From Chloroflexota bacterium (GTDB lineage Bacteria; Chloroflexota; Anaerolineae; Anaerolineales; Villigracilaceae), in the NCBI GenBank assembly GCA_021414245.1, contig JAIOOU010000003.1, forward strand, positions 372,001-436,000: a stretch of 64,000 nucleotides of DNA. Reading direction: 5' to 3'. Positions 16,760 to 20,860 of this stretch are shown here, one piece after another. The position numbers and the translations under genes were made by a program. The number at the start of each line of letters is the position of its first letter. Within the stretch, counting starts at the first letter, position 1. A model generated the notes under the pieces. That model saw only the letters and a list, made by a program, of their open reading frames with translations. It was not told the origin of the DNA and did no database searches.

Positions 16760-17608
16760 TCAAGTTTCCTGGAACAGCATGCGTTCCATGAGTGTGCGCT
16801 GGAATATGATGAAAATGACGATGACCGGTACGGACATGATGATGGCAAGTGCCCCGAGATCGCTCCATGGCTGTGCGCCCGAGAATTGGCCGTAAACCAA
16901 CGCGTAGGTAGCCATGGAAAGCGTGACATTGTCGGCTTTATCCACAAAGAGCCAGCCGATGGCGAATTCGGTATAGCCCATCAGGAATGCGATCAGGGCG
17001 GTGACTGAGATCGCTGGAAGGGCAATTGGCAGATTGATCAAGAGGAAACTCTTAAAATGACCGGCCCCGTCCAGATAAGCGGCTTCCTCCACTTCCTTGG
17101 GAACGGCTTGAAACGCCGCCCGCAGATTCCAAATCGCGAACGGCATGGCGAAGGCTGCGTAGACAATGATCAATCCGAACAGTGTCGTGCGGACCTTTAA
17201 TAAACTCAAAATAATATACAGAGGCGTCGCGAATGCGATCGGCGGGAGCAAGGCCGCCAGCAAAAGGATGAATAACCCAGTTTTCTGCCCGGGAAACCGG
17301 AACCGCGCAAAGGCATACGCCAGGCTGGCTCCCAATACCAGTGCCAGGGCAGCCGCGCCGAACGAGACGATCAGGCTGTTCTTTAATAAAACTTCGAACT
17401 GGACGGATTGGTAGGGTTTGTCCAAAACCTTGAGGAATGGGGCGAATGAAAATTCCTTCGGCAGAAAACTGAATTGCGTGGGTCGGCCTATCAGTGCGCC
17501 GTCAAATGCAAGACGAATGGTGCCCCAGATTGGGATCAGGATGAGCACGCTCACGAGCAGGAAAATGCCTTGTGTCAGGATCTGCCTGAGCAGGGGGATT
17601 TTACGCAT
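16760..17608 (-). CDS. ABC transporter permease, MalG-type (CUT1)
   Basis: 282 residues with six predicted membrane helices and the permease EAA loop in EEAAYLDGAGHFKSFLLINL, which docks the ATPase. The family works as one half of a MalFG-type heterodimer for sugar import. The other half appears to be the C-terminal part of the fusion protein at 17601-19730, whose gene overlaps this one by 8 bases. No solute-binding protein or ATPase gene is next to it, so those parts must come from elsewhere. Confidence 0.9.
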   Translation of the reverse strand: MRKIPLLRQILTQGIFLLVSVLILIPIWGTIRLAFDGALIGRPTQFSFLPKEFSFAPFLKVLDKPYQSVQFEVLLKNSLIVSFGAAALALVLGASLAYAFARFRFPGQKTGLFILLLAALLPPIAFATPLYIILSLLKVRTTLFGLIIVYAAFAMPFAIWNLRAAFQAVPKEVEEAAYLDGAGHFKSFLLINLPIALPAISVTALIAFLMGYTEFAIGWLFVDKADNVTLSMATYALVYGQFSGAQPWSDLGALAIIMSVPVIVIFIIFQRTLMERMLFQET

Positions 17609-19730
17609 TTTTCAACTCCTCCTTCGATCTGGTTTCGCGGTTGAACAGAGCCACAAATCCGATCAGAATGATGACGGTAATGATGTTGACTATGGCCGAA
17701 GCGGAGAATTGTCCGTTAAAGGGGCCGGACGGGTTAAATAAGTTGTACGAAAGCAATGCCAGCGTGCTGGATTGCTGTTTCCAGTATTGAAAAGCCCACA
17801 GTAAATAGAATTGGTTGAAGGCGAAAATCGCCCGAATGATCAAGGCGGGCAGCAGCAAAGGCATGAGGAGCGGCAGGGTGATATACCTGAACGTTTCCCA
17901 GATCGTTGCCCCGTCGATTGCGGCCGCTTCGAATACATCCGTGGGGATCATTTTTAAACCTGCGCTGGATGCAAGCATGATCAATGGGAAACCATACCAG
18001 ATCGCTGGAATTAAAAGTACGAAGAACCATAAATTCGGGGTTCTCTCCCAGCCGATCAAAAAGTTAAATGGGAAGCCTGCCCCGTATTTTTGCGCGGCGA
18101 GGGCAAGGAAACCCACATCCGGGACGAAAATATTCAACCAAAGCAGGGCGCCGATCAATTCCGGGATCGCCCAAGGCAGGATAAAGATGGCCTGCCAGAA
18201 TTTTCCAAAGCGAACCCCCTTTTGATGAAGCAGCAGGGCAAGTCCGAGGCCGAGTGTGGTTTGCAGGGCAATGGAGACGGAAGCCCAGATGATATTGAAG
18301 ACCAGGACTCCGCTTCCGGTAATAAAGTCGAAAACAGGCCCATAACTGGCGAGGCCCGTAAATTGGACTTTGTTTGAATCAAATGGAAATTCCGGTTGAA
18401 TGGCCGCAATTTGACCGGTAATCCCCCCAAGGAACTCACGCCAGATCCCGCCCTGGAAGCCATCCCGAATGGATAGTCTATTGAAATCGGTCACGGAGAC
18501 TGCTAGCTGAAAAATGAAAGGCAGCAGGGTCAACAGGGTGAAGGCAATCAGTCCCGGGATGAGCCAGGGGATGGCCTGCCGGGTTTCCCTTGGATTGTAT
18601 TTTATTTTTTCACGGGATTTCCGGTCCTTCCACCATTCCATCCCGTTCAGCCAGACCTGCCGGATCCCCTGACTTGCGGAAAATGAAAGCGGAACAGTCA
18701 GCATGAGAATGTATTGCGGCCATTTGGTGGGCCAAACGAGCAGAAACAAAAATGCAATGGCAAGCCAGAACGCAAAGACTCTTTGCTTTTTCCATAGGTG
18801 ACGGATGCCGAAAATGGCAAAGAGTGTAATAAAGAAATCAGGTGCGACCAGGAAAACTCCCGGGTGCCATTGGGTGGGCGACATGGTGACCCATACGAAA
18901 GGCTGCCAGATCGGATAGTCCGCATTTTTGACTTCGCTGGCACCGGTGGAGTAGCCAGCGTGATATAGGACCGATTCTTTCAGTCTTTCGATCGGGGCCG
19001 GCCAAAGATAGGGATCGGTGGCGAAAAAGACGAGGATGGAGAAAATTCCCCATAAAAGCGCCTGGGTATAAAATGGGCGCAGGTTTCCTTTTTGTTTTTC
19101 ATCCCAAAACCAGTCAATAAGAATGGCGACGGCCACCAGACAATACAGGTATTTTGAAGCGGCGGTCAGGCCCAGGAATACAGCCGAGGCGACCAGCCAG
19201 TTTGTTCTTGCCTTCCCTTTTTTGCTTTGAACATAAGCAAGGACTGTCACGAGACTTGTCAGGGCTGGCAGGGCCTCCAGCATGACCTGCGAGACGTATT
19301 TGATCGTGAAGGTGTGCGTGGCCAGTAACAATCCCGCCAGCGGGTCGAATATGGCGAGCAAAAAAACGGTCAATGTGCCAAAGATGGCGTTGATGGTCCT
19401 GGCTGGCGTGAGCAGGGCGCGCGGCAGGTGACTGTTGGGTCCTGCTGTGGTGGCTGCGTCGGGAGTCAGCGCCTCTTCCGGAGTGGACAACAGGCTCAGC
19501 CCCATTACGATCTTTGCAAGCGGGGGATGTTCGGGGCGGTAGTTTGTTTCGAGAAAGCCGGACCAGTCCGAGGTCCGGATCAGATGCGCATATTCCTGGC
19601 TTGCACGCAGGTAATCATCCTCGTCAAAGTCAATCGAAAGCATGGATACGGCGCGGGCACGTACCATCCAGCCGGCAAAAACCACAAACGCGATCGCAAG
19701 GATATAAAGTGGGGTTTTGAATCGGGTCAT
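17601..19730 (-). CDS. Fusion of PMT/GT39-like glycosyltransferase and MalF-type ABC permease
   Basis: 709 residues in one uninterrupted frame. The ATG at 19730 follows GGAGG with 8-base spacing; an in-frame TTG lies 15 bases earlier. Residues 1-370 look like a multi-pass PMT/ArnT-like glycosyltransferase: an early acidic pair in SIDFDEDDYLRA, then NYRPEHPPLAK, then about eight membrane helices ending near LVWPTKWPQYILML. Residues 385-703 are a CUT1 permease (PWLIPGLIAFTLL..., EAA loop FEAAAIDGATIWETFRYITL). Its partner permease is the next gene. No frameshift is needed, so a natural fusion is the simplest reading; assembly chimerism is unlikely but should be tested. A function joining transport with lipid-linked sugar transfer is inference. 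Confidence 0.8.
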   Translation of the reverse strand: MTRFKTPLYILAIAFVVFAGWMVRARAVSMLSIDFDEDDYLRASQEYAHLIRTSDWSGFLETNYRPEHPPLAKIVMGLSLLSTPEEALTPDAATTAGPNSHLPRALLTPARTINAIFGTLTVFLLAIFDPLAGLLLATHTFTIKYVSQVMLEALPALTSLVTVLAYVQSKKGKARTNWLVASAVFLGLTAASKYLYCLVAVAILIDWFWDEKQKGNLRPFYTQALLWGIFSILVFFATDPYLWPAPIERLKESVLYHAGYSTGASEVKNADYPIWQPFVWVTMSPTQWHPGVFLVAPDFFITLFAIFGIRHLWKKQRVFAFWLAIAFLFLLVWPTKWPQYILMLTVPLSFSASQGIRQVWLNGMEWWKDRKSREKIKYNPRETRQAIPWLIPGLIAFTLLTLLPFIFQLAVSVTDFNRLSIRDGFQGGIWREFLGGITGQIAAIQPEFPFDSNKVQFTGLASYGPVFDFITGSGVLVFNIIWASVSIALQTTLGLGLALLLHQKGVRFGKFWQAIFILPWAIPELIGALLWLNIFVPDVGFLALAAQKYGAGFPFNFLIGWERTPNLWFFVLLIPAIWYGFPLIMLASSAGLKMIPTDVFEAAAIDGATIWETFRYITLPLLMPLLLPALIIRAIFAFNQFYLLWAFQYWKQQSSTLALLSYNLFNPSGPFNGQFSASAIVNIITVIILIGFVALFNRETRSKEELKNA

Positions 19731-19747
19731 GCTCGATGCCTCCAATG

Positions 19748-19774
19748 AAAAAGTGGCGGCCTGAAAGCCGCCAC
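19748..19774 (-). terminator. Intrinsic terminator of prfA
   Basis: On the minus strand GTGGCGGC, loop TTTCAG, GCCGCCAC, then TTTTT. It lies 10 bases after the prfA stop and just before the fusion gene, so prfA is transcribed apart from the permease-prmC-tsaC genes downstream. Confidence 0.85.
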
Positions 19775-19783
19775 CTCAATTAA

Positions 19784-20860
19784 CTATTCGTCATCGTCGA
19801 CGCCTGTCGCAGCCAGGCGTTCTGACTCATCCTGGGTGGAGAGCTGGTCGATAAATTGGTCGATCGCTCCATCCATGACGACCGGCAGGTTGTAACTGGA
19901 ATACCCGATACGGTGGTCCGTGACTCGGCTTTGCGGGTAATTATAGGTGCGGATCTTTTCCGAGCGTTCGCCGGTGCCGACCTGTGAACGACGGTCGGCC
20001 TCCAGTTCCGCGCGCCGTTTCTGTTCCTCGATCTCGTACAATCGCGCGCGCAGAATGCTGAGGGCACGCAGTTTGTTCTGCAGCTGCGAGCGTTCATCCT
20101 GGCAGGTTACGATCATGCCGGTTGGTTTGTGATACAGGCGTACGGCAGTCGAGTTCTTCTGCACGTTCTGGCCGCCTGCGCCGGAGGAACGATAGACCTC
20201 GATCACAATGTCGCTTTCAGGGATGTCCACTTCCACATCGTCCACTTCAGCCAGTACGGTCACGGTGGCTGTCGAAGTATGAATGCGCCCCTGCGATTCG
20301 GTGGCGGGTACACGCTGGACGCGATGCACGCCCGATTCATATTTCAATCGCGAGTACGCACCCTTGCCCTTGACTTCAAAGATCACTTCCTTGTAACCGC
20401 CCACGCCGATGGCGCTTTCTGACATCAGCTCGACCTTCCAGCGTTTGCCTTCCACATAGCGTGTGTACATGCGGAACAGATCCGCTGCAAAGATGGCGGC
20501 TTCGTCGCCGCCGGCACCGGCCCGAATTTCGAAGATGACATTCCGGTCGTCGCGCGGGTCCTTGGGGACCAGCATGCCGCGGATCTCCTTTTCGAGGACT
20601 TCGATCTTCGGACCGAGTTCATCCACGTCCGCCTTGGCTAATGAGACCAGCTCCGCATCCTTTTCGGAGATAATGAGAGCCTTGGCCTCCTCAAGGCTTT
20701 TGAGTGCCTGGCGGTACTCGCGGACCTTGGCGTAAATGGGCTCCAGCTCCACGCGCTCCTTGTTGATCTCACCGGCGCGTTGATAGTCGCTGCCCACTTC
20801 GAGCAGTTCGGCTCCCAGTTGTTCATATCGTTCTTCAATTGCCTGTAATTTGTCGAGCAT
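19784..20860 (-). CDS. prfA: Peptide chain release factor 1
   Basis: 358 residues, normal RF1 length. It reads UAA and UAG and triggers peptide release. The stop-codon recognition motif reads PAT in VQRVPATESQGRIHTST, which marks RF1 rather than RF2, and the catalytic GGQ is in SSGAGGQNVQKNSTAVRL. The N-terminal part is helical. PrmC (15900-16757) should methylate the GGQ glutamine. A terminator follows directly. Confidence 0.97.
   Translation of the reverse strand: MLDKLQAIEERYEQLGAELLEVGSDYQRAGEINKERVELEPIYAKVREYRQALKSLEEAKALIISEKDAELVSLAKADVDELGPKIEVLEKEIRGMLVPKDPRDDRNVIFEIRAGAGGDEAAIFAADLFRMYTRYVEGKRWKVELMSESAIGVGGYKEVIFEVKGKGAYSRLKYESGVHRVQRVPATESQGRIHTSTATVTVLAEVDDVEVDIPESDIVIEVYRSSGAGGQNVQKNSTAVRLYHKPTGMIVTCQDERSQLQNKLRALSILRARLYEIEEQKRRAELEADRRSQVGTGERSEKIRTYNYPQSRVTDHRIGYSSYNLPVVMDGAIDQFIDQLSTQDESERLAATGVDDDE

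Follow-up and report, generated by a model that had tools for sequence, protein, structure and literature searches.

Can a glycosyltransferase of the outer membrane face and a subunit of a sugar importer be one and the same protein? To our knowledge, GT-C glycosyltransferases (GTs) and ATP-binding cassette (ABC) importers, both large membrane families, are normally separate proteins. The question is raised by a frame on the minus strand of a 64,000-nucleotide stretch of a Chloroflexota genome (assembly GCA_021414245.1, contig JAIOOU010000003.1, positions 372,001 to 436,000; hereafter the window), which a sequence-only reading had taken to be a single-frame fusion of a PMT/GT39-like glycosyltransferase and a MalF-type ABC permease. 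The frame has 709 codons plus a stop, and its ATG (19728-19730) follows GGAG, which resembles a Shine-Dalgarno (SD) sequence; an alternative TTG start is possible at 19745, and the stop-to-stop version comprises 724 amino acids. We confirmed that the fusion is real and long conserved in many Chloroflexota. It is made up as follows.

17601-19730, minus strand: whole fused GT-C::MalF open reading frame (ORF), stop codon included; a conserved fused frame
18621-19730, minus strand: GT-C glycosyltransferase module, residues 1-370 (AlphaFold2 models, structure matches, conserved residues)
18594-18620, minus strand: linker joining the two membrane domains, residues 371-379 (mean predicted local distance difference test score, pLDDT, 68 at 371-380; internal start not conserved)
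17604-18593, minus strand: MalF/SugA-type ABC permease module, residues 380-709 (PF00528, MalF profile match, SugA/MalF fold)

With the whole protein as query, one open fused frame without a stop was found in 25 of 61 genomes (the window's own included) at 47%-100% identity; in G003, G010, and G013 the open frame was counted as far as the contig reaches. The GT half alone found matches, only some of them fused, in 63 of the 301 genomes searched from the order and in 34 of the 400 from the phylum. At least 76 loci, all titled Chloroflexota (including Oscillochloris and Chloroflexaceae), came from an alignment scan of named genome contigs, which took the best 80 matches to peptide patterns from the fusion family and is silent on absence outside Chloroflexota; the remaining genome searches covered relatives and members of the phylum. 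In those loci, 66 ORFs were called with both halves, 55 of them 690-765 amino acids long. Pooling gave 116 distinct Chloroflexota GT domains, of which 79 are fused, 13 have a long tail that is not a permease, and 24 are solo. To enter this pool a frame needed at least 60 bits over at least 300 aligned residues, with one row kept per identical stretch of residues 41-300; the pool omits loci L001-L020 and L210-L217. Counts are based on stop-to-stop frames, and the greedy ORF caller missed genes (e.g., L189, L191, L194, L204). Identity to the window protein over the whole length is 36%-74% in 29 aligned homologs and 44%-65% in 53. The claim of one 709-codon fusion was thus borne out, the full-length homologs that had been called for exist across Chloroflexota, and conservation of the fused frame across genomes excludes a chance or chimeric join, as well as a missed stop.

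In a GT tree made by a quick method, 93 rows, all 79 fused ones among them, form one group (99 in the Shimodaira-Hasegawa-like approximate likelihood ratio test), with the long-tail proteins outside. Homologs that always split, which the sequence-only reading had named as the pattern that would speak against a fusion, did not appear: 79 of the 93 rows in the clade are fused, and six of the 14 unfused ones make up a single paralog clade. Judging from this tree, the fusion probably arose once. The label "fused" needs nine changes on it, at least six of them forced by starred branches, which would fit a single gain followed by recurrent fission or loss, contig cuts and frameshifts that read as solo, or several gains. 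Plasmid-borne spread was considered and rejected, as none of 912 matching plasmid records reaches 80% coverage of the query, and the ten matches listed begin at residue 347 or later. Two of the unfused clade members, G017 (L037) and G290 (L108), have their GT half in one frame and their permease half in another, owing to assembly indels or fission; in G017 there are two overlapping frames instead of one.

It had also been asked whether translation starts internally, near residue 380. Among the 73 of 79 fused rows in which the junction could be located, there is no conserved start: an ATG occurs in 21, a start codon follows an SD-like 4-mer in nine and a strong SD in one, and no SD-like sequence precedes the ATG that the window protein has at residue 364. 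Because an internal start near residues 364-380 is not conserved and has no good SD ahead of it, it was rejected. Positive charges abound just ahead of the permease (KDRKSREKIKYNPRETRQ), as would suit a cytoplasmic linker and an outward-facing active site.

What kind of enzyme is the first half? Modeling places it among the GT-C glycosyltransferases, in the PMT/ArnT fold class. AlphaFold2 returned a confident model of the whole protein (54 aligned sequences; pLDDT 91.9, predicted template modeling score 0.88), and the first half modeled alone (pLDDT 91.7) gave the same fold answer, with matches to PMT, ArnT, and oligosaccharyltransferase (OST) structures. In VIA-align, the module alone matches Pmt4 (9i5l) with Z 28.5 and a root-mean-square deviation (rmsd) of 3.1 over 330 aligned residues (2-362), Pmt1-Pmt2 (6p25_B) with Z 27.7, and ArnT (5f15) with Z 26.0 over 4-366; Foldseek gave E 2.6e-6. 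For the whole model, the top rank in VIA-align 2 is again Pmt4 9i5l (Z 27.9, rmsd 3.2, 336 aligned), with a range of 2-472 that extends slightly into the permease half, and ArnT 5f15 is among those that follow, with Z 26.1, rmsd 3.6, and 311 aligned over 4-366. The window protein thus has in common with Pmt4, Pmt1-Pmt2, and ArnT the GT-C fold (Z 26-28 over the first half) and, in the first loop past helix 1, an acidic motif. Unlike them, it runs straight into an ABC permease, with no room for the MIR or C-terminal periplasmic domain of those enzymes.

Sequence searches said less about this half, and a sequence search of the PDB with the family profile gave nothing for it; its relatives appeared by fold search. 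A domain search of each half identified the permease by Pfam and the GT by fold only, Pfam being blank. In a distant fused homolog (L103), PF13231 (PMT_2) reaches 32.8 bits (cut-off 26.1), a cut-off that the other nine of the ten homologs scanned did not attain. PF02366 matched neither the window protein nor the ten scanned homologs, which leaves GT39 sensu stricto unsupported; of the "PMT/GT39-like" assignment, the PMT/ArnT fold held in the model and GT39 proper did not. The motifs first noticed by eye, DFDEDDYLRA and EHPPLAK, were located at residues 34-43 and 67-73, and the first of them contains the putative active site.

19611-19631, minus strand: acidic D.DE..Y motif (residues 34-40), located in the loop that follows helix 1; conserved across GT domains

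This motif, a candidate catalytic site by analogy with PMT, is present in 77 of the 79 fused, all 13 long-tail, and 22 of the 24 solo GT domains, and among fused rows EHP...K is present in 77 of 79 and KW.QY in 78 of 79. The five exceptions to these motifs are one contig-cut row (L160), one whose N terminus reads unlike the others (L196), and three with substitutions (L064, L186, L194). Invariant in 54 fused proteins are E67, H68, P69, K73, K144, Y145, K193, K336, W337, Q339, and Y340, and D34, D36, E37, and Y40 are at least 90% conserved among them.

The second half is a permease of the MalF type that lies outside the MalF equivalog. PF00528 scores 59.1 bits (cut-off 26.4) at residues 494-700, and MalF ranks first in NCBIfam with 78.6 bits, below the equivalog cut-off of 392. 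A PDB search with the family profile returned MalF (2r6g) at E 4.5e-34, and by structure the best matches are SugA (8ja7_A; Z 24.4, rmsd 2.7, 281 aligned) and MalF (9bcr_H; Z 24.4, rmsd 3.0, 292 aligned); over residues 379-709 of the whole model, the best SugA and MalF matches in VIA-align had rmsd 2.6-3.0. The EAA-type loop (FEAAAIDGA...TLPLL) lies at about 600-622, so that the earlier assignment to the CUT1 permeases with such a loop was upheld. D606, G607, and A608 are invariant among 30 and among 54 aligned fused proteins, as is a signature, FNQFY, in the 54; the operon's own MalF in L038 and L039 reads F-N-L-F-N-F where the fused permease has F-N-Q-F-Y. Compared with E. coli MalF and Mycobacterium SugA, the permease fold over 379-709, the EAA-type loop, and a MalG-type partner are alike, and many fusion relatives likewise sit in an operon with MalE, an MsmK-type ATPase, and amylases. 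The fusion differs in having a 370-residue GT-C module ahead of the permease, in forming a second pair beside the canonical one, and in lacking a large periplasmic loop like that of E. coli MalF. ABC permeases that are fused or lengthened are also found in NCBIfam, for example NF043073 (permease/substrate-binding protein) and TIGR03262 (PhnU2, 546 positions), but there the added part, going by the family names, belongs to the transporter and is not an enzyme of another fold.

A channel of this type requires a partner, and the gene next to the fusion had been proposed to supply it.

16760-17608, minus strand: MalG2, partner permease (PF00528 51 bits; 8-base overlap with the fusion)

The proposal was supported by the relatives. 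In 75 of the 79 fused rows, a same-strand MalG2 frame starts no more than 400 bases from the end of the fusion (76 of 79 if MalG2 may lie anywhere in the fetched DNA); of the four that fail the strict test, L167 and L186 are cut by contig ends, L208 has a shortened permease half, and in L194 MalG2 is farther away. The best NCBIfam match of MalG2 is the MalG equivalog, below its cut-off. MalG2 forms a clade of its own (100/100) in the permease tree, and the same two subgroups are found in the MalG2 and fused-permease trees. It should be noted that each class contributed up to 16 rows to this tree, chosen in locus order, that its fused rows are of one genus, and that long-branch joins were flagged. 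Together, the trees and gene order support MalG2 as the probable channel partner of the fused permease.

Where does the fused pair belong in the genome? In many lineages the gene order, complete or partial, is ATPase-ROK-MalE-MalF-MalG-amylase-fusion-MalG2-amylase, and 37 of the 79 fused rows have mal or amylase genes nearby, where context was judged on fetched DNA (for many rows just 4 kb or so) and "mal" stands for any of MalE, MalF, MalG, and amylase. (The names prfA, prmC, tsaC, ROK, MsmK-type ATPase, oxidoreductase, and amylase used here are putative, assigned from the translations.) The recurrence of this arrangement makes alpha-glucan uptake the nearest functional setting, and the maltodextrin/alpha-glucan operon is probably the older home of the fused gene. 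The window genome itself has a full mal operon, from the oxidoreductase to the second amylase, at G000:C1:483.5-493.7 kb, and it is without the fusion. An operon that is intact elsewhere, with the fusion at prfA, places the fused pair apart from the operon in this genome. The expectation that an ATPase and a binding protein would be supplied in trans agrees with what was found: both are encoded at G000:C1:484-488 kb and are 89% (ATPase) and 86% (MalE) identical to operon-type proteins of G022. Five relatives with the prfA location (L212, L213, L215-L217) likewise keep the mal operon wholly or largely. Across 37 genomes of the genus, 20 have fusion and MalE, four the fusion only, two MalE only, and 11 neither (Fisher p 9e-5, kinship ignored); for the 22 near-complete members the counts are 12, 2, 2, and 6 (p 0.008, kinship again ignored).

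GT-C enzymes take their sugars from polyprenyl-phosphate donors and work at the outer surface of the membrane. The reading that we favor, tentatively and at slightly below an even chance, is that an outer-face GT is docked at a second maltodextrin-type channel, so that capture and glycosylation would take place in one complex. The active site of the GT module is predicted to face outside, and its donor, to go by the fold class, would be a polyprenyl-phosphate sugar. The fused MalF2 and MalG2 would form a second permease pair linked to alpha-glucan/maltodextrin uptake, which is expected to share the MsmK-type ATPase with the canonical MalFG, and MalE where it is present. Being fused would, we infer, keep the transferase at the importer's mouth, where candidate acceptors include a surface glycan, a protein, or the incoming glucan. 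Computation shows the fusion, the predicted folds, the conserved motifs, the partner gene, and the operon; catalysis, donor, orientation, the sharing of ATPase and MalE, and coupling are inferences from these. The tie to "glycan assembly" that had been suggested earlier was not shown.

Several observations weigh against docking at the importer. No Pfam family matches the first half of the window protein up to E = 1, PF13231 included. Beyond the rows with mal genes, 29 of 79 fused rows adjoin prfA/prmC, and 13 of 79 adjoin neither mal nor prfA/prmC, in the DNA fetched. Outside the fusions, neither mal nor prfA/prmC genes turned up in the fetched DNA of 15 of the 24 solo GT rows; association with mal genes thus does not account for the whole GT family. 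Two near-complete genomes (G026, 99% complete; G004, 96%) encode the fusion together with MalG2 and the ATPase, but neither has a close MalE or a close canonical MalF; the best MalE match is 27% in G026, and there is none at E 0.001 in G004. The fused pair would thus be independent of MalFG there, with another binding protein or none, and MalE cannot be the sole binding protein. Lastly, the two halves have conflicting histories. When 77 fused proteins were compared half by half, the identities correlated (Spearman 0.67), yet the nearest neighbor was the same for both halves in no more than 41 of the 77. Each half's alignment rejects the other's tree, by log-likelihood differences of 1400 and 2058, in a comparison that used fixed FastTree trees under LG+G4 with 1000 resamplings (the program asks for 10,000 in the approximately unbiased test) and that is strict because whole resolved trees were compared. 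Such separate histories suggest that transferase and permease behave as exchangeable modules.

These conflicts lend support to the chief alternative, that the chain carries two uncoupled activities, exchangeable modules with expression and place in common, which we regard as unlikely but as a serious contender. The shuffling is plain in individual rows: L160 is 78% identical to L044 in the GT half and 56% in the permease half, whereas it is 45% identical to L167 in the GT half and 77% in the permease half. The GT tree and the permease/MalG2 tree disagree within the genus, and MalG2 tracks the permease half (L024 goes with L034 in both the permease and MalG2 trees, while its GT half is nearest that of L021). 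Transferase and permease pair therefore look like recombining modules that usually stay fused in the clade; gene conversion, transfer, and single-row assembly error are candidate sources of the conflicts and would look alike here. Reshuffled halves, and the mutual rejection of their trees, weaken coupling and strengthen the uncoupled alternative. So does the fact that homologous GTs without a permease adjoin similar operons. Genomes of another family of the phylum (f36), and some of the window's own order, have a homologous GT after MalE-MalF-MalG and/or amylase genes, and mal or amylase genes are in the fetched DNA of 12 of 13 long-tail rows. The GT module of the long-tail proteins (L094-L098, L128, L131, L133) is homologous (34%-40% identity) and likewise lies beside mal genes, but they have a beta-propeller tail (PF07494 repeats in the three tested, L095, L098, and L133) in place of the permease, and they occupy a separate branch of the GT tree. 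This GT is thus linked to alpha-glucan uptake even where it is unfused. The uncoupled alternative is opposed by the fused state of 79 of the 93 clade rows despite these exchanges, as an accidental tie should break more often.

Aside from these, a second, unfused GT paralog lies directly upstream of the fused gene in L030 (9486-10589), L138, L147, L155, L190, and L052. The upstream paralogs are 44%-49% identical to the window GT half, and five of them (L190 was not in the tree) form one clade with the lone GT of G295, which lies between prfA and prmC.

A second alternative, which we consider improbable, is protein O-glycosylation: the GT module would modify a Ser/Thr linker of MalE or amylase lipoproteins brought to the same complex. 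PMT enzymes glycosylate lipoproteins in actinobacteria. The best structural matches of the module are protein O-mannosyltransferases, and many MalE linkers are T/P-rich. However, Ser/Thr is not conserved in them. Among 28 MalE proteins in fusion loci, linkers could be cut out of 23; two of the 23 have no Ser/Thr and eight (those two included) have no more than two, in a survey confined to MalE linkers. This speaks against linker O-glycosylation as a common purpose and weakens MalE-linker glycosylation in particular, as does the retention of the fusion without this MalE in the two near-complete genomes.

Less probable still, and in our view doubtful, is that the GT module is catalytically dead and serves the permease as a sugar-binding or scaffold domain. 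Fusion would permit such a change of role, and no activity is known for the module, but the three motifs are retained in 77, 77, and 78 of the 79 fused rows, and a dead enzyme should have lost them at such divergence. An assembly or sequencing artefact can be dismissed: although the named relatives are nearly all metagenome-assembled genomes and two rows have halves in different frames, the same junction recurs in tens of assemblies, some of them single-contig (G025, G021).

We would hold, a little more tentatively than the docking itself, that a Chloroflexota importer carries its own polyprenyl-phosphate-dependent GT in a permease subunit, combining alpha-glucan uptake with outer-face glycosylation in one complex, with halves that can be swapped between lineages, and that this has not been described before. 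No description of a GT-C::MalF-type fusion was found in the open-licence literature of PubMed Central, which leaves absence from print unproved; the architecture, of two known families and conserved, is apparently undescribed. A fusion that has persisted across many Chloroflexota lineages with its own MalG partner, and in many of them within the maltodextrin operon, points to a link of sugar uptake with outer-face glycosylation, of which the papers searched yielded no test. As a single 709-residue target with a confident model, it would allow enzyme activity, transport, and coupling to be assayed separately by point changes, and the naturally shuffled halves are ready chimeras for telling which half sets which specificity.

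In the window, the gene order is prfA-fusion-MalG2-prmC-tsaC. prfA occupies 19784-20860, and the fused gene begins 53 bases past its end; between the two lies a further element.

19753-19774, minus strand: perfect inverted repeat of 8 bp, G+C-rich and with T5 after it, in the gap from prfA to the fusion (RNA fold -20.9 kcal/mol, z -4.07)

This repeat is absent from the output of a consensus terminator scan. It is possibly a terminator or attenuator of prfA, and with such a hairpin in between, simple read-through from prfA into the fused gene may not occur.

Some minor observations concern the neighboring genes of relatives. L218 (G026:C5:473-477 kb) has the order oxidoreductase-ATPase-second amylase, without the ROK, MalE, MalF, MalG, and first amylase of its relatives. 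In L125 and L199, the MalE frame opens with the apparent end of another protein, which suggests a fused or tandem binding protein, and the MalE match at G029:C88:46858-47943 lies inside a 954-amino-acid open frame, a possible fusion with a neighbor. In L024/L135, L124/L166, and L147, prfA is separated from the fused or paralogous GT gene by a frame of 314-315 amino acids.

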